This document shows positions 143-42,956 of a stretch of 43,971 nt of DNA, in pieces. The stretch is from contig JAMPDH010000010.1 in NCBI GenBank assembly GCA_023665725.1, forward strand, positions 1-43,971, in the 5' to 3' direction. The notes under the pieces were generated by a model. The model saw only the letters and a program-made list of their open reading frames with translations, did not search any database and was not told the DNA's origin. Position numbers and translations under genes: made by a program. Within the stretch, counting starts at the first letter, position 1. Every line of letters begins with the position of its first letter. Source of the DNA: Clostridium sp. (GTDB lineage Bacteria > Bacillota_I > Bacilli_A > RF39 > UBA660).

Positions 143-1765
143 CTAATTTTTTATATCTCTTTTACAATAAACAATAAATGTTATAACTATAATTATAATG
201 CTTAATATAATCGAATTTATAATTGAACTATCAATATTTATATTTACAAAGGAATCTAAATATGGATAAATAACTTCATGGTAGTTTATTAATATAACTG
301 GAATATAATTAAATACTGAATTATTAAATGAAATTACATATGGCATAAATGTTAACCCAAATATTAGTATTAATAATATTGCTATAGAAATAGTTGGTAT
401 TAGAGTAATTGATGAAAGTAAAAATAATATGCTTAAGAATAAAAGACATATAACTAATGTATATAAAATATTTTTAAATGTAAAACTTATATAAGAAATT
501 TTACTTATACTTCCACTTTCATTTATTACAAGTGGTATATTAAATTCATTAAATCCATACATTATTCCACTCAATATATAAGTTATTATAATGCTAATTA
601 AATATAATGATAGAAAAATTAATATTGTCACCAATAATTTAGATAATAAAATCTTCCATCTTTTATATGGCTTAGTAAGAAGTAATCTAATACTACCCGT
701 TTTATGCTCGTTTGCAATTATTCCACCACACATTATAACTGTTATTATTAATGATACTATTGCCATATAAAATACATTGTTATTAGAAAGTCTCGTATTA
801 TATGGAATTGTAAAACCACTTGATGAATATTCTAATGGCTTTATATTATTATTTAAATAATACCAATTTTCAATATTTCTATTTTTTGCATTATCTATAC
901 TAGGTTTATTTCTATGTATGTAATCCTCATATGTTAAATAAAGCGAATTTGCATTTTGATTATAAATAAATTCTTTTTCATTATCTAATATTTCATGTTC
1001 CTGATTCAAATTAGATAAAATATCCTTAATTACTATATATTTCCAATCATTATGATCCTCAATCTTATTTTCTATAATATATTTATATAATTTTTGAGTA
1101 TCAATTAAAACATTTTTTTTCTGCTCTAACTGATGTAATCTATCTATAGCATTATAATTTGGTAAAATAGCTCTATCTTTAATCAAATTTATCTCTTTTT
1201 CTAAATCTTTAATTTCATTATCAACCTTTTTTGTTAAAGTTTCTATATATTGATAATATTTATAATTATTAAAAATATTATTATAGTATTCAATTTGTTT
1301 TTTTACTTCTTTTTGTCTATTTACTGCTTCTTCTTTAGTTTCATATTTATAATTAGTTACTACTTCATCATCCATGTCAACACCATCTAAATATAATTCT
1401 ATAATCATATTTTCTGTTTCTAAGACGTGTATTTGTTCAAAAATTTCACTTTTCCAATTAAAATCAGATATATTTAATTCATTTCTTTTTTTAGTAGATT
1501 CATAATTATGCTCAAGTATTTTTAAAGCTATTAAATTATTTGTATTTGAATCATTCTCATAATCTTTTTTAGCTCGAGCAATCATATTTTCCATTAGTGA
1601 ATTGTCTGCAATAAAACCATCTATTGAAACACTCTTATTATATATATATTCGGAAAGTTTAATTAGTCCAAAACTAGTTAATGATAAAATTATTAATATG
1701 GTAAGTATTTTTTTTAAATTTAAAATTTTATTTAACTCAAAATTAATTAATTTAAATATCTTCAT
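143..1765 (-). CDS. ABC-2 type transporter permease with a large coiled-coil extracytoplasmic loop
   Basis: A 540-residue membrane protein. One N-terminal membrane segment (about residues 18-36) is followed by some 290 hydrophilic, Lys/Glu/Asn-rich residues with heptad-like helical stretches. A C-terminal block of five or so membrane segments (about 330-535) follows, and the loop after the first of these contains the text EHKTGSIRLLLTKPYKRW, typical of ABC-2 exporters next to the membrane. It starts 4 bp after the stop of the ATPase gene 1770-2498, so the two form one exporter. The substrate is unknown. Export of a peptide, lipid or drug is possible by family, but nothing local decides between them. 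Confidence 0.85.
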   Translation of the reverse strand: MKIFKLINFELNKILNLKKILTILIILSLTSFGLIKLSEYIYNKSVSIDGFIADNSLMENMIARAKKDYENDSNTNNLIALKILEHNYESTKKRNELNISDFNWKSEIFEQIHVLETENMIIELYLDGVDMDDEVVTNYKYETKEEAVNRQKEVKKQIEYYNNIFNNYKYYQYIETLTKKVDNEIKDLEKEINLIKDRAILPNYNAIDRLHQLEQKKNVLIDTQKLYKYIIENKIEDHNDWKYIVIKDILSNLNQEHEILDNEKEFIYNQNANSLYLTYEDYIHRNKPSIDNAKNRNIENWYYLNNNIKPLEYSSSGFTIPYNTRLSNNNVFYMAIVSLIITVIMCGGIIANEHKTGSIRLLLTKPYKRWKILLSKLLVTILIFLSLYLISIIITYILSGIMYGFNEFNIPLVINESGSISKISYISFTFKNILYTLVICLLFLSILFLLSSITLIPTISIAILLILIFGLTFMPYVISFNNSVFNYIPVILINYHEVIYPYLDSFVNINIDSSIINSIILSIIIIVITFIVYCKRDIKN

Positions 1766-1769
1766 AATA

Positions 1770-2498
1770 TTACCTCAATTGTCCTTTGGATCCATGTAAT
1801 TTTTCTATAAATATATCTTCTAAAGACATATTTTTTTCTAAAAGTTCTCTGACATTTATTTTTTCTATAAACTTACCATTATCTATCATAATTATTTCAT
1901 CACAAACTTTCTGCATTTCTTCTAACATATGGCTACATAAAATAATAGTTATCTTCATTTCTTTATTAATTAATTTTAAAAACTCTCTTAATTCTTTTAT
2001 TCCAAATGGATCTAACCCATTTGTAGGTTCATCTAATATTAATATTTTTGGCTTATTTATTAATGCACATACAATACCTAATCTTTGTTTCATACCTAGT
2101 GAATAGGTTTTAACTTTATCATTTATCCTATTTTCTAATTTAGACCAAGATATTAATTTATTTATATAATTTAAATCATTAGCATTATTTAATTTAGAAT
2201 ATAGTTCTATATTTTTTTTACCACTTAAATTATTATACATATCAGGATTTTCTATTATGCACCCAATATTTTCTAAACACTTTTCTAAATTTTTTTTAAT
2301 AGAATAACTATTTATATAAATATTTCCTTTATTTATATGATATAATCCTAACATTGTTTTTATTAATGTACTTTTACCTGCACCATTAGGACCTACTATT
2401 CCGGTTATTTTTTCCTTTTCAATTGAAAAAGAAAGGTTATTTAAAATAATCTTTCCTTTTATCTTTTTTGTTAGATTATCAACTTTAATAACTTCCAT
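1770..2498 (-). CDS. ABC transporter ATP-binding protein (ABC-2 exporter partner)
   Basis: A 242-residue nucleotide-binding subunit. It shows Walker A GPNGAGKS (36-43), a signature loop in the variant form YSLGMKQR (132-139), Walker B ILILDEP (152-158) and the switch histidine H190. The YSLGMKQR form is common in BcrA/CcmA-like exporter ATPases, which include bacitracin-type and lantibiotic-immunity pumps, so export rather than import is expected. It is the first gene of a two-gene unit with the permease 143-1765. The ATG has a GAGAGG-type ribosome binding site. Its leader contains a promoter and two mutually exclusive hairpins (separate entries), so expression may be controlled in the 5' untranslated region. 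Confidence 0.92.
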   Translation of the reverse strand: MEVIKVDNLTKKIKGKIILNNLSFSIEKEKITGIVGPNGAGKSTLIKTMLGLYHINKGNIYINSYSIKKNLEKCLENIGCIIENPDMYNNLSGKKNIELYSKLNNANDLNYINKLISWSKLENRINDKVKTYSLGMKQRLGIVCALINKPKILILDEPTNGLDPFGIKELREFLKLINKEMKITIILCSHMLEEMQKVCDEIIMIDNGKFIEKINVRELLEKNMSLEDIFIEKLHGSKGQLR

Positions 2499-2540
2499 AC
2501 ATTAACCTCTCTACTTATATTATTAATTTTCTAAACTAAA

Positions 2541-2602
2541 TCCACTATAAACTCTGAGTGGAGATATAACATACATCACACAACATACAACTAACTATCT
2601 CC
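2541..2602 (-). promoter_or_regulatory. Leader with two competing hairpins upstream of the ABC exporter
   Basis: In the minus-strand transcript, GGAGATA (2596-2602) can pair with TATCTCC (2560-2566). Alternatively TCCACT (2557-2562) can pair with AGTGGA (2541-2546). The two stems share bases 2560-2562, so they exclude each other. The leader is about 160 nt long, unusually long for this window. A 13-codon reading frame starting MLCDVC lies between them, with a poorly spaced AGGAG upstream. No known riboswitch class is recognised. Confidence 0.35.
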
Positions 2603-2642
2603 TAAAACTAAATTATTATTTCTCCTTTCATTGATGCTTTAT

Positions 2643-2693
2643 GCTAGTTGTTTACTTCTAGCTAAATTATATCACTTTTATATATATTTTCAA
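2643..2693 (-). promoter_or_regulatory. Promoter of the ABC exporter with inverted repeat at the start site
   Basis: Minus strand: -35 TTGAAA (2688-2693), 16-bp spacer, -10 TATAAT (2666-2671). A perfect inverted repeat GCTAG-N10-CTAGC (2643-2662) covers the predicted start site, a position suited to a repressor operator. The promoter lies just upstream of the last codons of tgt on the downstream side. Confidence 0.6.
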
Positions 2694-2698
2694 GTATA

Positions 2699-3885
<1,187 letters not shown>

Positions 3886-3913
3886 ACTCTAGAAATGAAA
3901 GGGGAAATTTATT

Positions 3914-31726: not shown

Positions 31727-33535
31727 ATGTGTGGTATTATAGGTTATATTGGAAAGAAAAATGCAATTGAGGTTCTTATAAAAGGTCTTGAAAGGTTAGA
31801 ATATAGAGGTTATGATTCAGCTGGAATTGCATATATTCAAAATAGTAAACTAAATATAATCAAAGAGAAAGGAAAAATTGAAAATTTAAAATCAATCATA
31901 AATTTTAATAATACATCAAATCTTGGTATTGGACACACTAGGTGGGCTACACATGGAGATGCTAATAAAACTAATAGTCACCCCCATAGTGTTGGTAAAA
32001 TAACTATAGTTCATAATGGTATTATAGAAAATTTTGAAGAATTAAAGAAAACTTTAATCAAGGAAGGTGTTACTTTTAAATCAGAAACAGATACCGAAGT
32101 AGCTTGCGCATTGCTTAATAAATATTATTGTGAAAAAAATGATATAATATATGCTATAAAAAAATTTCAAGAAAATGTTTATGGAACTTATGCAATAGGT
32201 ATAATATGTAGTGATATTAATGATACATTATTTGCAATTAAAAATAAAAATCCGTTGATTATTGCGGTAGGAAATGATGAAAACTATATAGCGTCAGATG
32301 TTCCAGCTATACTTGATTTTACTAATAAATATATAATATTAAATGACGGAGAATTTGCTAAAATAACTAATAAAAATATTACTTGCTATAATAAAAATGG
32401 TATTGTTGAAAAAGAAATTAATGAATTTAATGGAGATAATCTTGATATAGAAAAAAATGGGTATGAACATTATATGTTAAAAGAAATTAATGAACAGCCT
32501 ACAACTTTTAAAAATACAGTTATGCCTTATTTGGAAAATGATATGGATAGTTTAATTGAAAAGATGCCTGATTTTTCTAAGTATGAAAGTATTAAAATAG
32601 TAGCATGTGGGAGTGCCATGCATGCTGGATTAGTTGGTAAAAATTTAATAGAAGAATTTGCTGATATTCCAGTTGAAGTTGATATTGCAAGTGAATTTAG
32701 ATATAAAAAGGTTTTCTTAAATGATAAAACTTTAGTAATAGTAATATCACAATCTGGAGAAACTGCTGATTCACTTGCTGCCCTTGAAAGAGCTAATGAA
32801 AACAATTGTGATACCCTTGGAATAATAAATGTTGTAGGAAGTTCAATAGCAAGAAGTGCTAAAAGTGTTTTATATACTAAAGCAGGTAGTGAAATTGCTG
32901 TTGCTACTACAAAGGCATATTCATCACAGGTTGCACTACTTATGTTAATCGCACTTAATATTGCTAATTCTAAGAATCTAATAAAAATTCACGAAATTAA
33001 ACAAATATTAGAAGAAATTAAAGATATTCCAAATAAAATATATAGTTTATTAAATAATGAAGAGTTATATAATGATATTGCTAAGGATATATATCAAAAT
33101 AATGACATATTTTATATAGGTAGAGATATTGATTATGCCCTTTCTATGGAAGGCTCATTAAAACTTAAAGAAATATCTTATATAAATTCTCAAGCTTATG
33201 CAGCTGGTGAATTAAAACATGGAACAATTTCTTTAATAGAAAATGGTACTCCTGTTATAGCGATATCTACTAAAAAAGATTTATCTACTAAAACTATAAG
33301 TAATATTAAAGAAGTAAAAGCACGTGGTGCTAAAGTAGTATTTATTACAACAGATGAAATAGATAAAGAATCAGATTTTTATGATCATAAAATTGTGATT
33401 CCTACAACTCATAAATTATTACAACCTTTACTTACTATAATTCCATTGCAAATGCTTTCATATAATATTGCAAAACTAAGAGGTTGCGATATTGATAAAC
33501 CTAAAAATCTTGCTAAATCTGTAACAGTAGAATAA
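31727..33535 (+). CDS. glmS: Glucosamine-6-phosphate synthase (glutamine-hydrolysing)
   Basis: A 602-residue enzyme making GlcN-6-P from fructose-6-P and glutamine, the entry to UDP-GlcNAc. Start at 31727 gives MCGIIGYIG with the N-terminal cysteine nucleophile after Met removal; the reading frame is open further upstream, but that extension would bury the catalytic Cys. The glutaminase domain (RWATHGD, HNGIIEN) is followed by two SIS sugar-isomerase domains (ACGSAMHAG, SQSGETADS, ELKHGTISL) and the C-terminal AKSVTVE. It is complete and monocistronic. Confidence 0.97.
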   Translation: MCGIIGYIGKKNAIEVLIKGLERLEYRGYDSAGIAYIQNSKLNIIKEKGKIENLKSIINFNNTSNLGIGHTRWATHGDANKTNSHPHSVGKITIVHNGIIENFEELKKTLIKEGVTFKSETDTEVACALLNKYYCEKNDIIYAIKKFQENVYGTYAIGIICSDINDTLFAIKNKNPLIIAVGNDENYIASDVPAILDFTNKYIILNDGEFAKITNKNITCYNKNGIVEKEINEFNGDNLDIEKNGYEHYMLKEINEQPTTFKNTVMPYLENDMDSLIEKMPDFSKYESIKIVACGSAMHAGLVGKNLIEEFADIPVEVDIASEFRYKKVFLNDKTLVIVISQSGETADSLAALERANENNCDTLGIINVVGSSIARSAKSVLYTKAGSEIAVATTKAYSSQVALLMLIALNIANSKNLIKIHEIKQILEEIKDIPNKIYSLLNNEELYNDIAKDIYQNNDIFYIGRDIDYALSMEGSLKLKEISYINSQAYAAGELKHGTISLIENGTPVIAISTKKDLSTKTISNIKEVKARGAKVVFITTDEIDKESDFYDHKIVIPTTHKLLQPLLTIIPLQMLSYNIAKLRGCDIDKPKNLAKSVTVE

Positions 33536-33538
33536 AAG

Positions 33539-33584
33539 AAAAAGGATATTAGAAAATAAATAATCTATTTCTAATATCCTTTTT
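33539..33584. terminator. Strong bidirectional terminator
   Basis: A perfect 17-bp stem (33539-33555 with 33568-33584) and a 12-nt loop with T-runs on both strands. It separates glmS from the convergent radical SAM gene. Confidence 0.9.
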
Positions 33585-33595
33585 AATTTTATAAA

Positions 33596-34423
33596 TTAAT
33601 ATCCTTCTTTTAATCCAGTACTATCAAAAAATAAACTTCTCCCACCGTAACCATATTCTTTTGTATATCTAAAATAAACAAATATTGTTTTTCCATTTTT
33701 GGCTACATACAAATAATTAGCACATGAACATCTTTTTCCATCAGCCATTTTTTTTGTTTCTAGAAAATCATCATTTAACGAAGATATTATATCTCGATAG
33801 TCAACAAAATTATCCTTTGTAAATTTATTGACTTGCATCATTGAAATAAATCCAACTTGAGAAATGTCTGTTTCACTTATTTTTTCCAAAAATTTAATTA
33901 TTTCCTCTTTTGAATCTATATAATTTTTTATAAGTAAGCAATTTATTCGTAAATCTGCGTTTACTTTAATATTTTTCAAATCCTCAAAAGGCAAAGTCTT
34001 AATTTGAAAAACTTGATTATTTTTCTCGTCTTCATAATGATGTCTACTAAGTTGTATTGATTCAATATTAGGATATTTGTTAAGCATATCAATATTATCA
34101 AGCAAAAAACTTCCATTTGTATTCATAGTTATTCTTCTATTATAAACGTGTAATAATTTAAGTAATTCTTCTAAATCTTTAGAATTAATTAATGTTTCTC
34201 CACCACTTATAGAAAATCTACTAACTTTATCACTTACTTTATCTAAAATTTCTTTTAAGTAATTTAAATCTAATTTACCATAGTCATTATTGCATACATT
34301 AGAACAAAAACTACATTTGGCATTACAAATATTTGTAATATTTATATAAAATGGAAATTCATTACATGGAGAACAAGCATATGGCTTAATTTCATATTCC
34401 TTATTTCTAATTTCTAATTTCAT
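33596..34423 (-). CDS. Radical SAM enzyme, probable maturase of the neighbouring repeat peptide
   Basis: 275 residues. The canonical cluster motif C33-X3-C37-X2-C40 (CNAKCSFC) is followed by SGGE (73-76), so it should bind [4Fe-4S] and S-adenosylmethionine. A second pair, C17-X2-C20, lies just before, and C44 just after. The C-terminal part has a single C232-S-C234 followed by a SPASM/twitch-like strand pattern (YVAKNGKTIFVYFR) but lacks a full SPASM cysteine set. No RRE/PqqD-like domain is obvious. Its start overlaps the end of the repeat-peptide gene by 17 bp, so translation is coupled; this is the main reason for linking the two. Confidence 0.87.
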   Translation of the reverse strand: MKLEIRNKEYEIKPYACSPCNEFPFYINITNICNAKCSFCSNVCNNDYGKLDLNYLKEILDKVSDKVSRFSISGGETLINSKDLEELLKLLHVYNRRITMNTNGSFLLDNIDMLNKYPNIESIQLSRHHYEDEKNNQVFQIKTLPFEDLKNIKVNADLRINCLLIKNYIDSKEEIIKFLEKISETDISQVGFISMMQVNKFTKDNFVDYRDIISSLNDDFLETKKMADGKRCSCANYLYVAKNGKTIFVYFRYTKEYGYGGRSLFFDSTGLKEGY

Positions 34424-34844
34424 TATGTCTCACACCATTATTTTTTCTAATTAATAATAATGATTTTCCGCTTTCGTTTTTTGAACTACAACAAGCTGGA
34501 TGACCATATCCTCCAGATGGATAACCATTTCCACAAGCTGGATGACCATATCCTCCAGATGGATAACCATTTCCACAAGCTGGATGACCATATCCTCCAG
34601 ATGGATAACCATTTCCACAAGCTGGATGGCCTAACATCTGAATTTGGTTTCTCATTTCTGATACATAATCATCATTTATTTGATAACCATAGCTATCTAA
34701 TCTTTCATTTGCAAATGCAATATTTTTTTCATTTGCAAAAAATACAGGTACAATACTATTAATTCTTTCTAATTGCCCGATTGGATTTTCTGACCTTTCA
34801 AAAATTTTTTGTAAAAAAACTTCACTATTATTTTTTCTTTTCAT
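34407..34844 (-). CDS. Repeat peptide, candidate RiPP precursor
   Basis: 145 residues. A leader-like part (1-71) contains charged, helical text and no signal sequence. Three exact copies of GHPACGNGYPSGGY follow (72-85, 86-99, 100-113), then a fourth start GHPACC (114-119) and a 26-residue Lys/Arg/Asn-rich tail. The repeat zone has one Cys, one His, two Pro, two Tyr and six Gly per unit, with Cys at 76, 90, 104, 118 and 119. A good AGGAGG site precedes the ATG. It is 43 bp after parC on the same strand, with a possible promoter (TTAATG/TATATT) in between. No homologue recognised; a short structural protein is an alternative. Confidence 0.8.
   Translation of the reverse strand: MKRKNNSEVFLQKIFERSENPIGQLERINSIVPVFFANEKNIAFANERLDSYGYQINDDYVSEMRNQIQMLGHPACGNGYPSGGYGHPACGNGYPSGGYGHPACGNGYPSGGYGHPACCSSKNESGKSLLLIRKNNGVRHNEIRN
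34493..34628 (-). repeat. Exact 42-bp tandem repeat, three copies plus a partial
   Basis: The units at 34493-34534, 34535-34576 and 34577-34618 are identical base for base, and ten bases of a fourth follow. The unit length is a multiple of three and keeps the frame of the repeat peptide. Lack of any synonymous difference points to recent expansion or ongoing copy-number change. Confidence 0.95.
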
Positions 34845-34887
34845 AATAAAACCTCCTATTTCAATATATTATTTAATATTTTTCTCA

Positions 34888-37416
34888 TTAATCTAATCCA
34901 TTTATTTTAAAGTCATCTAAGAAATCATCTATTGTCATTATTTTTTCATCTATTTTATCTAGTTCAATATTACTATCTTTATCATTATCTATATTTTGCT
35001 CTTCTTGATGTAAGTTATCTATAAGAATCATTTCTTTAAATACTTCATCTATATTATGCTTAGATATAGTCGAACCAGTTGAATATCTATCCATTATTGG
35101 TAATTCAGTTACTTTTATTTTATTTATATCATTACCTACTCTAATTCCAATTGTAGATTTATTGTTAATAATAAATGAATTTAATATGTAATAAGGATTT
35201 GTTTTTACATCCCTTATTACTTGAATTCCTTTTCTTGCTCTAGTCATGATTTCAAAATCAGAAAGTTTTACTCTTTTTCCTGTATTCTTTTCAGTAATTA
35301 TAGATAAGTAATCATCATTTTTATTGAATATTGAAAAACTTACTACTTCATCATTTTTAAGACTTATTCCTTTTACTCCTGAGCCCTTTGTTCCTATCGG
35401 AGCTACTTCTTCTAACTTAAATCTTAAACCTACTCCATTTTTTGTAACAATAAATATTTCATCTTTATTTATATATGATACATCTACTAATAAATCATTA
35501 TCTTTTAATTTTATCGCTGTTAATGTTTTATTATATCTTTGAACTTTAAATTCATTTAACTTAGTTCTTTTTATCATACCATTTTTAGTTACAAATGTAA
35601 GATATATTTCATCATTAAAATCATATACGGGCATACTTGATATAATTACCTCATCTGGATCCATTTTAACTATATTGCTAACATGTTTCCCAATTTCCTT
35701 CCATTTCATATCTGGAATGTCATGAACAGGAATATATAAATAATTACCTAAATTTGTAAATAATAATACTGTGTCTAATGTATTCATTTTATATAATCCT
35801 ATTAAATAATCACCATCTTTTAAGGCAGTATCTCCATCTGATTGTGAATAACTTCTACTAGAAACTCTTTTGATATAACCTCTTTTACTAACTATAACTA
35901 CTACATCTTCTTTAGAAATCATTTTAGTTGTATCTATTTTTATTTCTTCTACTTCCTCTTTTATTTCTGTTTTTCTAGGTGTTGCATATTTATCTTTTAT
36001 ATTTTTTAATTCATCTTTCATAACTGCTTTTAATCTTGATTCATCTCTTAATATTTCTTCTAATGATTTAATTATAATAGTTAGTTTTTTGTTTTCTTCT
36101 TCTAAATCTACAACATCTATATTTGTTAATCTATAAAGTTGTAAATCAAGAATAGCTTGGGCTTGTTCTATAGTAAATTCAAATTTTTCAACAAGATTGT
36201 TACATGCATCTTGTCTATTTTTACTTGATCTTATTACTTTTATTACCTCATCTAATATAGAAAGGGCTTTTATTAAACCAGATACAATATGTAACCTTTT
36301 TCTAGCAACATCTAAATCAAAATTAGTTCTTTTTGTTATAATATCTCTTTGATGTGCAATATAAACATCTAACATTGCAATTAATCCTAAAGTTAAAGGC
36401 CTTCCATTAACAATAGCAACCATGTTATAACTATAAGAAACCATTAAATCTGTATTTTTATACAAATAATTTAAAATAAGCTCAGGGTCTGCATCCTTTT
36501 TTAAATCTATTGCTATTTGTAAACCAGCTCTATCTGTTTCATCTCTTACTTCTAATATTCCATCTATTCTTTTTTCTATTCTAATTTCATCTATCTTTTT
36601 TACTAATTGTTGTTTATTAACTTCAAATGGAATTTCTGAAATAATTATTTGTTTTTTACCTTTAATTTCATTAACTTTTAATTTCGATTTTACAACCACT
36701 TTTCCACGGCCAGTTGTAAGTGCTTCCCTTATTTCACGTTTTCCTTCAACAATTCCTCCTGTTGGAAAATCTGGCCCTTGTACTATGTTAAATATAGTAT
36801 CCTCATGGCAATTTGGACTATCTATTCTTTTAATTGTAGCATTAATTATCTCACCTAAATTATGAGGGGGTATATTTGTTGCATATCCAGCACTTATTCC
36901 TGTTGAACCATTTACAATTAAATTAGGAAATTTTGCTGGTAAAACAGTTGGTTCAAGTAAAGTATCATCATAGTTAGGTGCCCATGATACTGTTCCTTTA
37001 TCAATATCTTTTAGTAATTCATTACTTATCTTAGATAATCTTGCCTCTGTATAACGCATAGCTGCTGGTCCATCACCATCCATGGAACCATTATTACCAT
37101 GCATATCTATTAAAATTGTATTTTGCTTCCACCACTGACTCATTCTAACCATAGCTTCATATATTGAAGAATCTCCATGTGGATGATACTGTCCCATTAC
37201 ATTTCCAACAGTTTTAGCCGATTTTTTATAAGCTTTATCAAATGTATTTCTATCTTTATACATTGCATAAAGTATTCTTCTTTGAACTGGCTTTAAACCA
37301 TCTCTAGCATCAGGTAAAGCTCTATCTTGTATTATAGTTTTAGAATACCTTGCAAATCTTTCTCCCATTATTTCTTCTAGTGAATAATCATATATTTTTT
37401 TTATAACTTCTTGCAC
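34888..37416 (-). CDS. parC: DNA topoisomerase IV subunit A
   Basis: An 842-residue DNA-cleaving subunit. The catalytic tyrosine is Y122 in AAMRYTEARL. The quinolone-pocket block is YHPHGDSSIYEAM (77-89), with the usual serines at 83 and 84. A coiled region and a C-terminal beta-pinwheel (about 500-800) follow, ending in an acidic Asp/Glu-rich tail. Translation begins at GTG 37416, with AGGTGA upstream. The gene follows the unknown 37421-37831 gene by 4 bp and belongs to the parE-X-parC unit. ParC rather than GyrA is inferred from pairing with this ParE and the absence of the GyrA-box by eye. Confidence 0.94.
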   Translation of the reverse strand: MQEVIKKIYDYSLEEIMGERFARYSKTIIQDRALPDARDGLKPVQRRILYAMYKDRNTFDKAYKKSAKTVGNVMGQYHPHGDSSIYEAMVRMSQWWKQNTILIDMHGNNGSMDGDGPAAMRYTEARLSKISNELLKDIDKGTVSWAPNYDDTLLEPTVLPAKFPNLIVNGSTGISAGYATNIPPHNLGEIINATIKRIDSPNCHEDTIFNIVQGPDFPTGGIVEGKREIREALTTGRGKVVVKSKLKVNEIKGKKQIIISEIPFEVNKQQLVKKIDEIRIEKRIDGILEVRDETDRAGLQIAIDLKKDADPELILNYLYKNTDLMVSYSYNMVAIVNGRPLTLGLIAMLDVYIAHQRDIITKRTNFDLDVARKRLHIVSGLIKALSILDEVIKVIRSSKNRQDACNNLVEKFEFTIEQAQAILDLQLYRLTNIDVVDLEEENKKLTIIIKSLEEILRDESRLKAVMKDELKNIKDKYATPRKTEIKEEVEEIKIDTTKMISKEDVVVIVSKRGYIKRVSSRSYSQSDGDTALKDGDYLIGLYKMNTLDTVLLFTNLGNYLYIPVHDIPDMKWKEIGKHVSNIVKMDPDEVIISSMPVYDFNDEIYLTFVTKNGMIKRTKLNEFKVQRYNKTLTAIKLKDNDLLVDVSYINKDEIFIVTKNGVGLRFKLEEVAPIGTKGSGVKGISLKNDEVVSFSIFNKNDDYLSIITEKNTGKRVKLSDFEIMTRARKGIQVIRDVKTNPYYILNSFIINNKSTIGIRVGNDINKIKVTELPIMDRYSTGSTISKHNIDEVFKEMILIDNLHQEEQNIDNDKDSNIELDKIDEKIMTIDDFLDDFKINGLD

Positions 37417-39910: not shown

Positions 39911-40558
39911 TTACTTATTACTTTTTGAAACTTCATTTATATTGCCATCATCTATCTCATAAACAACATCTGCCAATTCATTAATATCTTCTTTTATATG
40001 AGACGCTATAATTATTAATTTATTATTTTGTTTTTCTTCCAATAATAATTTTCTAATACGTTTAGTTGTTTCATTTTCTACTCCATTAAATGGTTCATCT
40101 AATATTATCAAATCTGGATTTTCCATTAATACTTGTGCAATTCCAAGTTTTTGTTTAGTTCCTAAAGAATATTTAGAATATTTTTTATTTGCCTCTTTTT
40201 CTAAATTAACTTTTTTTATTGTTTCTTCTATTTCCTTTTTCCCTATCTTATTTTGAATTGACGCTAATAATTCTAAATTTTCAATTCCTGTTAAATCTGG
40301 CAAAAAATTAGGTTTTTCAATTAAGGCTCTTGTGTTCTCTGGAAAAGTATTATTTTTAATATAATTATAATTATCTAGCAAAATTTCGCCTGATGTAGGA
40401 GCATAAAATCCACAAATTATTTTTAATAAAACACTTTTACCTGAACCATTTCTTCCAATAAAACCATAAATTTTACCACTTTCTAGTTTTAAACTAACAT
40501 TTTTTAGTACTTCATTATCGCCAAATTTTTTTGAAACGTTTTTTACTTCTAAAATCAT
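39911..40558 (-). CDS. ABC transporter ATP-binding protein (bacteriocin/peptide-type exporter)
   Basis: 215 residues. Walker A is GRNGSGKS, the signature the variant YSLGTKQKLGIAQ, Walker B LIILDEPFNG and the switch ASHIKED. The variant signature is that of ABC-2 exporter ATPases, such as those giving self-protection to bacteriocin producers. The frame opens at 40579, but the ATG 40558 has GGAGG at good distance. It is the last gene of the five-gene unit and follows the membrane gene 40569-41243 by 10 bp. Confidence 0.93.
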   Translation of the reverse strand: MILEVKNVSKKFGDNEVLKNVSLKLESGKIYGFIGRNGSGKSVLLKIICGFYAPTSGEILLDNYNYIKNNTFPENTRALIEKPNFLPDLTGIENLELLASIQNKIGKKEIEETIKKVNLEKEANKKYSKYSLGTKQKLGIAQVLMENPDLIILDEPFNGVENETTKRIRKLLLEEKQNNKLIIIASHIKEDINELADVVYEIDDGNINEVSKSNK

Positions 40559-40568
40559 AAAATACCTC

Positions 40569-41243
40569 CTACTTTTCAAATACTTTCTTATGAAATTTTT
40601 TTATAAATCCTTTTATTCCAAAAGTGAGTATCACTATTAAAAGTCCAGTAATAACTAATTGAATATAATGTATATTTAATACATCCTTTGGAATAATGAT
40701 TATTATAAGAATACAAATAAAATATAATATATATTTATATTTTTTTATTCCTAAAGCATAACTATAAACTAATATAAATAATAGTTGTAACAATAAAGTT
40801 AATGTTATATCATATAAAATCAATTTTATATCAAATATACCATTATTTTTTATAAAAAATAATGTACTAGATAAAAATAAATACTGTAATATTTTTAATA
40901 AAATAGTAAAAATTGTCAAAAAAGTACATTTTCTTGAAATCCATTTTTCAGGGCTCATTCTAAAAAATATATTGTCCAATTCATACATTACATCTCTTGT
41001 ATAAAGATCAATTGCTAAAAATATGTAAATACATATATTAAATGCAAACATTACATATTCAATTAAATTACTTTCTTTTAATACTAAATTTGTTCCCATT
41101 GAATAACAAATCATTTGATTATTATTTAAACTCGAATTAATAACTATTAACATTACTATAATTGGAATAGAAATTAACATTAACAGAAATTTTTTTCTTT
41201 GTTTAAAAATATATGATATATCATTGAGTAAAATATATTTCAT
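40569..41243 (-). CDS. Membrane protein, ABC-2-type permease subunit candidate
   Basis: 224 residues with about six hydrophobic segments (first about 20-38, last about 180-212) and very little soluble sequence. No catalytic motif. A DLYTRDVMYELDNIFFRMSPEKW loop after helix 2 resembles the cytoplasmic coupling stretch of ABC-2 permeases. It overlaps the upstream membrane gene by four bases (ATGA), so the subunits are made together. I assign it to the permease of the adjacent ATPase by position. Confidence 0.8.
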   Translation of the reverse strand: MKYILLNDISYIFKQRKKFLLMLISIPIIVMLIVINSSLNNNQMICYSMGTNLVLKESNLIEYVMFAFNICIYIFLAIDLYTRDVMYELDNIFFRMSPEKWISRKCTFLTIFTILLKILQYLFLSSTLFFIKNNGIFDIKLILYDITLTLLLQLLFILVYSYALGIKKYKYILYFICILIIIIIPKDVLNIHYIQLVITGLLIVILTFGIKGFIKKFHKKVFEK

Positions 41244-41992
41244 GTAATCACCATTTTCTTATTTTTTATTGTTACTTTATATACTATCATTATTATAATC
41301 TCTATAATTAAAAGAAATAATATTGAAGAGCTTAATTCTGTCATAAATGATGAATAATAAGTTTCATTAAAATAATCCCATATATTAAATGAAAAATAAT
41401 TTTTAATAGTTACATCAAAACTATGCATTCCAAATCCCACAAGAAATATAGAATTTAATAACATTGTAATTTTATCTTTAAAATTAACAAATATAAGAGC
41501 AGAAACTATTGTTATTAAAACTGCATATATTACATATCTAAATACGTAAAAAATCATATATATTAAATTATTTATTTCATAATTATTATAATTATGTATG
41601 CCAAAAAATCCAAACCTTTTAAAATTAAGTATTGTAAAATATAGAATTAAAAATATAAGCAAATGAAATAAATTTAATACAATACTATTTTTTAATAATT
41701 CTTTTACATAAGTTTTTTTTGTTTTTAATCTTATTATATAATTTGCAAAATCCTTAGTAAATGTTGAGCAAGTATTTAATGTATTTAAAAATAATAAAGC
41801 AAACATAAATATATTAAACATAAAAAATTGAAATGTAAGTATTATACAATCGATAAAGTTCTCTGCCGATTCTCCCAAAACAAAGCCTCCATATAAAGCT
41901 AAGGCAATAGTCATAATAAAAATGATTTTAAAACGTTCTGTAGAAACTATATAATTAAAAATTTTTATCTGATTATGAATTTTGCTTTTCAT
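41240..41992 (-). CDS. Membrane protein of the ABC unit
   Basis: 250 residues, six or so hydrophobic helices, with LNTCSTFTKDFANYIIRLKTKKTYVKE after the second helix as in ABC-2-type permeases that face the ATPase. GGTGAT precedes the ATG, and the gene overlaps the preceding one by 20 bp. Probably one of three dissimilar permease subunits. I do not recognise a named family. Confidence 0.8.
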   Translation of the reverse strand: MKSKIHNQIKIFNYIVSTERFKIIFIMTIALALYGGFVLGESAENFIDCIILTFQFFMFNIFMFALLFLNTLNTCSTFTKDFANYIIRLKTKKTYVKELLKNSIVLNLFHLLIFLILYFTILNFKRFGFFGIHNYNNYEINNLIYMIFYVFRYVIYAVLITIVSALIFVNFKDKITMLLNSIFLVGFGMHSFDVTIKNYFSFNIWDYFNETYYSSFMTELSSSILFLLIIEIIIMIVYKVTIKNKKMVIT

Positions 41993-42914
41993 ATGATATT
42001 ATCACCTTTTCTTTGTCTCTATAAATTATGTATACAATTATAAAGGATATTAAAGCTAATATAAAGGCAATAAAAACTGTATATATACAAGATGGTCCTG
42101 TATCAAAAAACCAATATCCAGAAATATTGAAGTAATCAGTTAACTCCTTAAATCCTAGCAATTTATTAATAATATAACAATAAACAATAACATATACAAA
42201 AATTTCCACCAATATAAATATAATATATCCCATCATTGTTGCAACAAATGAATTTTTATTTTTAATACAGCAATATAATCCAATATTACAAAACATAATA
42301 TTTAAAAGATATTGCACTAAACATACAATTAACCCATATATAAAGAAATTAGAATATTTCCATGGTTCATATACAGCAAATGTTTTTACTGAATCTGCTA
42401 TATTGAAATTAAATTTTGTTACGATTGATGAAATAATAAAAATTAATATTATTATTATAGGAGTAATTAAAGAAATTTTTAATACTTTTTTAAATATATT
42501 TCCTAAATATTTTTTATAATTAATTCTCATTAAACGATTTTTAAACATTCCACTTGAAAAGTCGGAATGAAAAGTTCCTATAACTGCAATTAAAATTAGT
42601 AATGGCGAGAAAAGTTGTAAAATAATAAAAGAAGTAGTTTCAATTATTGAACAAGTTAATGTAATAGCATCTAATTCTTTATAGCATTTAACTGGATCAT
42701 TTATATTTATATAAGATTCTAAATTCTCCTTATTATTATAAATTTTGCAATATTCATGGTCAAGATTTTTTTCTTCATAACAATTTTCTTTTATAATATA
42801 ATAATCTTTAGAATATGAAAAATTTTCATCATAAAATTGATAAAAGCATATTCCAGTAAAAATTAAAATTATTGAAAACGATAAGATAATAAATTTATTT
42901 TTTTTAAACCACAT
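41973..42914 (-). CDS. Membrane protein of the ABC unit with an outer N-terminal loop
   Basis: 313 residues. A first helix (about 8-26) leads to a roughly 70-residue extracytoplasmic loop with four cysteines (ENCYEEK, EYCKIYN, VKCYKE, LTCS). Five or more helices follow. The loop FSSGMFKNRLMRINYKKYLGN resembles the ABC-2 coupling region. A TTG at 42926 is also in frame, but ATG 42914 has GGAGGT just ahead. First membrane gene after the secreted protein. Confidence 0.8.
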   Translation of the reverse strand: MWFKKNKFIILSFSIILIFTGICFYQFYDENFSYSKDYYIIKENCYEEKNLDHEYCKIYNNKENLESYININDPVKCYKELDAITLTCSIIETTSFIILQLFSPLLILIAVIGTFHSDFSSGMFKNRLMRINYKKYLGNIFKKVLKISLITPIIIILIFIISSIVTKFNFNIADSVKTFAVYEPWKYSNFFIYGLIVCLVQYLLNIMFCNIGLYCCIKNKNSFVATMMGYIIFILVEIFVYVIVYCYIINKLLGFKELTDYFNISGYWFFDTGPSCIYTVFIAFILALISFIIVYIIYRDKEKVIISYEKQNS

Positions 42915-42956
42915 TAGTACCTCCAAATAAATATAAAGTAGGAAATCTCATTTAAC

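Follow-up and report, generated by a model that had tools for sequence, protein, structure and literature searches.

This locus raises the question whether a small protein with a tandemly repeated, Cys-containing tail and the radical SAM enzyme encoded directly behind it form a system for peptide modification, and what kind of product such a system would make. Both genes lie on contig JAMPDH010000010.1 of a Clostridium sp. genome, in a stretch of 43,971 nucleotides that was analysed as a whole and is referred to as the window. A first-pass annotation, made from the sequence alone, had proposed a possible new RiPP system in which an exact 14-residue repeat peptide is coupled to a small radical SAM enzyme.

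The gene pair in the window

On the minus strand a parC/gyrA-like gene is followed, after a gap of 43 bp, by the gene of the repeat protein (here called the precursor) and then by the radical SAM gene (Table 1). glmS is convergent with the radical SAM gene and a strong inverted repeat separates both; the consensus terminator scan made no call at this repeat. The 145-residue product with a leader-like front, three identical units and a partial fourth, as described in the first-pass annotation, was confirmed in coordinates and lengths, as were the 17-bp overlap with the following gene and the presence of the enzyme motifs CNAKCSFC and SGGE. It also proved correct that no protease or exporter gene adjoins the pair and that the ABC genes are more than 5 kb away. 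These start at position 39911 and comprise an ABC ATPase and three membrane proteins (39911-42926) that are unlinked to the precursor/enzyme pair.

Table 1. Coordinates of the gene pair, its parts and its surroundings in the window.
Feature	Position	Strand	Basis
Inverted repeat separating glmS from the radical SAM gene, probable terminator in both directions	33532..33592	.	RNA fold -19.8/-20.0 kcal/mol
Radical SAM enzyme, 275 aa	33596..34423	-	CxxxCxFC (C33/C37/C40), SGGE, SRHHYxD, conserved C17/C232/C234; PF04055; AF2
Overlap of precursor and radical SAM genes, 17 bp	34407..34423	-	Identical 17-bp overlap in four other genomes
Precursor/putative substrate protein, 145 aa	34407..34844	-	ORF; AGGAGG RBS; homologues in L001, L034, L035, L047
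Follower segment CSSKNESGKSLLLIRKNNGVRHNEIRN	34410..34490	-	Conserved with L001
Partial fourth unit, GHPAC	34491..34505	-	Tandem Repeats Finder, unit comparison
Repeat unit 3, GHPACGNGYPSGGY	34506..34547	-	Tandem Repeats Finder, unit comparison
Repeat unit 2, GHPACGNGYPSGGY	34548..34589	-	Tandem Repeats Finder, unit comparison
Repeat unit 1, GHPACGNGYPSGGY	34590..34631	-	Tandem Repeats Finder, unit comparison
Leader domain (residues 1-71), helical by prediction	34632..34844	-	AF2; conserved in five genomes; dN/dS 0.157
Perfect Shine-Dalgarno AGGAGG of the precursor gene, just 5' of ATG	34852..34857	-	Sequence
Type II topoisomerase A subunit (parC/gyrA-like)	34888..37416	-	Co-directional, 43 bp upstream of precursor; name read from sequence

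Conservation of the pair in related genomes

The precursor and the enzyme, with the identical 17-bp overlap, were found in five genomes: that of the window, the rumen MAG RUG840 (L001), whose enzyme is 91% identical to the window enzyme, and three species of another genus of the window's family (L034, L035 and L047). Across these genomes the leader is conserved and the cores vary in length and sequence. A precursor-profile search of 291 genomes of the family recovered the precursor in three, all of which carry the enzyme, and no HPxCG-type precursor without the enzyme was found among the 291. That the enzyme is adjacent in all five precursor genomes, with an equal overlap, lends strong support to the proposed enzyme/precursor pairing; a search for the same pair in related genomes, which had been suggested as a check, thus gave four further cases. 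The locus has the features generally expected of a RiPP, i.e., a precursor gene adjoining a tailoring-type enzyme, a conserved leader and a core that is variable around fixed residues. Two sister species of the window's genus have neither precursor nor enzyme and carry other genes behind parC. As the pair occurs at different loci and is absent from these species, it is an accessory cassette that is kept as a pair.

The precursor ORF is a genuine gene, since a perfect AGGAGG precedes its ATG and dN/dS between the window and L001 is low for the leader (0.157) and the enzyme (0.064). Between L034 and L035, dN/dS of core and tail is 0.063. Over all comparisons the values range from 0.03 to 0.064 for the enzyme, from 0.10 to 0.157 for the leader and from 0.063 to 0.17 for core and tail; judged by these ratios, purifying selection is acting on every part, i.e., leader, core/tail and enzyme. 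Just upstream of the precursor, L034 (5225-5959) and L035 (8123-8863) encode a protein of 244-246 aa of no known family, in which C, H and D residues look papain-like, a putative reading. It was rejected as a protease of the system, having no family or PDB match, no counterpart beside the L047 pair and none found in the window genome.

A different partner is found in L002, a Bacilli genome from goat gut. Its enzyme is 63% identical to the window enzyme and falls inside the HPxCG clade of the enzyme tree (100/100), as sister to the window and L001 (95/84). No HPxCG precursor was found in the L002 genome. The gene just upstream of the enzyme encodes a 369-aa protein with a weakly LXG/ESAT-6-like N-terminus and ten TTCSGx repeats that lack His, and a WXG100-like gene follows just downstream. 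One close enzyme lineage thus seems to have swapped its Cys-repeat partner for a different one, which suggests that the enzyme follows the Cys repeat and not the leader. As a separate observation, the radical SAM gene of L002 lies within a run of WXG100/LXG-like genes (149-3900), and the 369-aa protein is possibly a radical-SAM-modified type VII secretion substrate.

Architecture of the precursor

The repeat array has a 42-bp period with 3.3 copies, 100% match and a score of 276 in Tandem Repeats Finder, and the DNA copies of the three full 14-aa units contain a single synonymous difference. A 21-bp sub-period (75% match) shows that each unit is itself a doublet, GHPACGN/GYPSGGY. In the AF2 model, residues 1-70 form a helical leader (block mean pLDDT 72-87) and the core is predicted to be disordered (31-46 for residues 71-130), which backs the earlier logic of a folded leader and a disordered, modifiable core. 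The precursor has no family in Pfam, NCBIfam, PHROGs or PADLOC, the Pfam rows being far under the cut-off, and in the fold search the top Z was 3.5, with none above chance. A Nif11 leader, suggested by GYxIN ahead of the last helix, was rejected: the window precursor has no Nif11 match in Pfam or NCBIfam at E up to 10, and neither have L001 and L034 in Pfam or L034 in NCBIfam at E up to 1. An approximate leader query gave no match against plasmids.

The window precursor contains five Cys. Comparison of the five precursors shows which residues are shared: the units, of 13-16 residues, vary in sequence around a constant H, P and C, with A or S filling the gap (H-P-[A/S]-C), and G follows the Cys in every unit except the last one of the window and of L001. 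In L001 the units are 13 aa long and arranged as A-B-B-A, and those of L034, L035 and L047 are variable, so that the 14-residue repeat, taken as the defining feature in the first-pass annotation, loses this role; exact repeat identity is peculiar to the window genome among the five. Furthermore, the number of Tyr per unit varies from 0 to 2, with several units of the relatives having none. As H, P and C are fixed and Tyr is not, crosslinks at Tyr, which had been put forward as candidates, are not supported as the shared chemistry.

The radical SAM enzyme

The enzyme belongs to the radical SAM superfamily (PF04055, 57.7 bits with a cut-off of 29.5), C33/C37/C40 forming the CxxxCxxC motif, and its AF2 model has a pLDDT of 90.6. 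The closest fold is MoaA (Z 19.1), and SuiB (18.1), viperin (about 17), SkfB (15.6), 5why (14.3) and EpeE (14) were also matched; by sequence, YydG is the top-scoring relative of solved structure (7.7e-14). Beyond the superfamily, no named family was reached at its cut-off in Pfam, PHROGs and PADLOC or among the best 25 of 50 NCBIfam matches. The enzyme scores 39.7 bits with the YydG epimerase model TIGR04078 (cut-off 300), 40.3 bits with the His-Xaa-Ser model TIGR03977 (HxsC; cut-off 267.9), the core here being HPxC and not HxS, and 34.9 bits with the viperin model NF038283 (pVip; cut-off 180). The PADLOC pVip model, which states no cut-off, gives 41.3 bits, and the MoaA cut-off of NCBIfam is far from reached. 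For the GrrM/GrrA and triceptide models of NCBIfam, the precursor has no match at E up to 10, the enzyme being judged on the best 25 of 50 matches. The description as a new system therefore holds within the libraries searched, neither protein falling into a named family.

In alignments of the enzyme relatives, C232 is invariant and C234 and C17 are conserved to at least 90%. No SPASM domain was matched in Pfam at E up to 10 and no SPASM/twitch was recognised; a diverged cluster-binding region with C232/C234 is possible. Moreover, no RRE was recognised with Pfam and NCBIfam, and an N-terminal RRE is not possible because the match to the SAM domain begins at residue 27, leaving too little sequence.

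A wider enzyme family with cysteine-tailed partners

Distant enzymes with the signature SRHHYxD..N, C17 and C232xC234 are encoded in further Bacilli genomes of this family (L036-L041) and on many phage contigs, including genomes of 634-735 kb, and a related enzyme of a Prevotella plasmid (L060) retains the signature partly. Their partners are mostly proteins of 81-211 aa with diverse N-termini and Ser/Gly/Cys-rich tails ending in Cys. In a first set, 14 of 25 loci have a Cys-ending gene directly upstream, whereas only 3 of 382 background ORFs end in Cys; in a second, viral set, which shares six contigs with the first and is not an independent sample, this applies to 18 of 22 loci, and three of the other four have a Cys-ending gene directly downstream. 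At three further loci a Cys-ending neighbour was seen on inspection. Non-terminal tail Cys are followed by G or S in 34 of 53 cases, the shuffles having a mean of 29% and none of 2000 reaching the observed count, in a tail set that was partly picked for a terminal Cys and not for CG/CS. There are exceptions: no Cys-tailed neighbour is present at L049, L057, L074 or on the plasmid, nor was one seen at L055. The precursors of the window, L001 and L035 lack the C-terminal Cys that is typical in the wider family, the His of the partner tails is not conserved outside the HPxCG group, and no HPxCG precursor was found in the viral contigs searched with it.

Retention of the radical SAM gene in relatives that lack the repeat gene had been named in advance as evidence against the proposal. 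Such relatives do occur, but most of them keep another Cys-tailed protein, so that the substrate class is wider than the first reading had assumed. As the distant relatives mostly adjoin Ser/Gly/Cys-tailed proteins ending in Cys, the shared substrate looks, at the sequence level, like Cys-Gly/Ser sites in a disordered tail, of which the tandem repeat would be one elaboration. Weaker radical SAM matches (L005-L022) are other radical SAM enzymes that have no such partner. In L042 and L043, a 570-aa protein combines an N-terminal half of unknown type with a related radical SAM domain (SRHHFDD motif).

Some neighbours recur in these relatives. NadR and PnuC are encoded near the enzyme in four Bacilli (L037, L039, L040, L041) and five phages (L050, L058, L059, L075, L077) plus duplicates. 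In the Bacilli, enzyme and Cys-tailed protein lie inside a large cluster for NAD synthesis/salvage with PnuC, NadR, NadD-like, NadE, nicotinate phosphoribosyltransferase, Nudix, Prs and NAD kinase genes; on the phage contigs, two of them of 634-642 kb, the pair adjoins NadR and the nicotinamide riboside transporter PnuC. Most other phage loci have an RlmN-like radical SAM gene of ~260 aa near the Cys-tailed protein (L051, L052, L054, L072, L076, L080, L082, L083, L086, L087, L089, L091, L093, L094). NADK is a neighbour in L052 and an RNA 2'-phosphotransferase in L086. These NadR/PnuC or RlmN-like contexts are seen in relatives and not in the window. Among the open-access papers searched none was found that joins radical SAM RiPPs to PnuC/NadR, to jumbo/huge phages or to WXG100, and the word 'radical' does not occur in a survey of NAD+-ADPr in viruses (PMC9503650).

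Proposed mechanism and alternative explanations

The reading that we favour, and hold to be probable, is that of an enzyme and its protein substrate, in which the leader recruits the enzyme, a tail Cys is modified once per repeat and the product probably stays in the cell. The folded helical leader (residues 1-71) would bring in the radical SAM enzyme, which would cleave SAM to generate a 5'-deoxyadenosyl radical, and this radical would modify the tail in one event per repeat, the disordered tail being, as we infer, the substrate. The most likely target would be the Cys of H-P-[A/S]-C-G, which may form a thioether with a residue close by while its thiolate is held by an auxiliary Fe-S cluster on C17, C232 and C234. 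Such a predicted cluster is plausible given the extra conserved cysteines and a fold nearest to MoaA, SuiB and SkfB, and this makes a thioether the leading guess; the geometry of the cluster and the cellular role are likewise guesses. The repeats would multiply the modification sites within a single polypeptide.

The product may be a modified mini-protein with an intracellular function. From the gene context, an intracellular product appears likelier than a secreted peptide antibiotic, given that the pair has neither a protease nor an exporter linked to it and is located behind topoisomerase genes. A RiPP in the natural-product sense, with leader cleavage and export, finds no support within the window, where no leader-removing protease or transporter lies beside the pair. 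The only Peptidase_C39 transporter found in the genome was rejected as exporter, as it serves its own 46-aa GG bacteriocin-like peptide; at that locus (L069, G000:C8, 4544-7194) the double-glycine peptide, the C39 peptidase transporter and a small accessory protein are encoded together.

Other explanations account for parts of these data. The tail might stay unmodified and the Cys/His-rich protein might be a helper that binds metal or Fe-S and so supplies, or shields, a cofactor needed by the enzyme or by some other protein. H and C of every HPxCG unit could bind metal, the tail is disordered in the AF2 model and distant partners carry a terminal Cys; as His is unconserved outside the HPxCG group and the ESX-like L002 partner has Cys repeats lacking His, such a helper is rather unlikely. 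The conserved pairing could also reflect binding of the partner without modification. A peptide epimerase like YydG/EpeE, which would abstract alpha-hydrogens in the tail and leave D-residues and an uncrosslinked Cys, is unlikely: YydG is the best-scoring solved relative and the enzyme is a single-domain protein of similar size, but the score with the YydG model is under its cut-off, MoaA-, viperin- and SuiB-type folds outscore EpeE, and the conserved substrate Cys would be left without a role.

We regard as quite unlikely that the substrate is a nucleotide, as for MoaA (GTP) or viperin (CTP), with the small protein as carrier, acceptor or regulator of the product. Both enzymes are among the near folds and the neighbours described above recur in relatives; however, the cut-offs of both NCBIfam models are far from reached, the pair has no linked nucleotide gene within the window, and a fold match by itself shows no function. 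Least credible is a chance neighbourhood of a low-complexity repeat ORF and an ordinary radical SAM enzyme. Tandem repeats arise easily and the slot behind parC is filled differently in sister species, but this explanation is contradicted by the conservation of the pair, which recurs with its overlap at different loci of five genomes, with leader and core under purifying selection.

Returning to the favoured reading of an enzyme acting on its own protein substrate, it can be extended, tentatively and with considerable doubt, to the whole family. Enzymes and Cys-tailed partners might make up a class of their own, that of radical SAM-modified mini-proteins which stay inside the cell, are common to huge phages and uncultured Bacilli of the gut, and are linked to NAD or RNA metabolism. 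In this class the tail would serve as a protein-borne cofactor or crosslinked cap and not as a released natural product, and in the window lineage the site would have been multiplied as tandem repeats. Provided that the pairing is correct, the locus offers a small two-gene system that has a short motif as its substrate, is suited to easy reconstitution and comes from an enzyme family without a named member in the libraries searched. On the same condition, the phage copies (634-735 kb genomes, several with NadR/PnuC, and many smaller contigs with an RlmN-like gene) would suggest that a modified peptide is made during infection, and radical SAM peptide modification would be set apart from the secreted-antibiotic setting in which it has mostly been studied.

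Comparison with known systems

With MoaA and viperin the enzyme shares the fold, whereas their family cut-offs are not reached and the neighbours of the enzyme family are Cys-tailed proteins. In the His-Xaa-Ser (HxsC) and GrrM/GrrA systems, too, a radical SAM enzyme has a partner that is repetitive or rich in glycine; the window precursor has no NCBIfam match at E up to 10 and the enzyme stays below the HxsC cut-off. YydG/EpeE of the epipeptides, the best sequence relative with a known structure, also acts on a peptide, whereas the window precursor matches no model and the C17/CxC pattern and SRHHYxD mark the family of the window enzyme.

The maturases of sactipeptides and ranthipeptides (AlbA, SkfB, CteB; PMC8326336) resemble the proposed system in that a core Cys is the expected donor and extra conserved cysteines lie past the SAM motif, and SkfB and the sactipeptide thioether enzyme 5why are among the fold matches. 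An auxiliary cluster that holds the substrate thiolate, as suggested here, has been proposed for CteB (PMC8326336). In contrast, the window enzyme has only 275 aa, no SPASM/twitch match and no RRE, and its 145-aa precursor protein has a folded leader.

The nearest known system in its logic is the TVG pathway, in which a tandem-repeated TVGG core (TvgA) receives one cyclopropylglycine per repeat and the rSAM-SPASM enzyme TvgB targets Val, in a cluster with an oxygenase and a peptidase/transporters (PMC9062424). The window pair differs from it in having no TVGG repeat, SPASM domain, adjacent oxygenase or peptidase/transporter, and Cys, not Val, is the expected target. What both have in common is a radical SAM enzyme that adjoins a precursor with a tandem-repeated core, the modification of each repeat being, for the window pair, a proposal.
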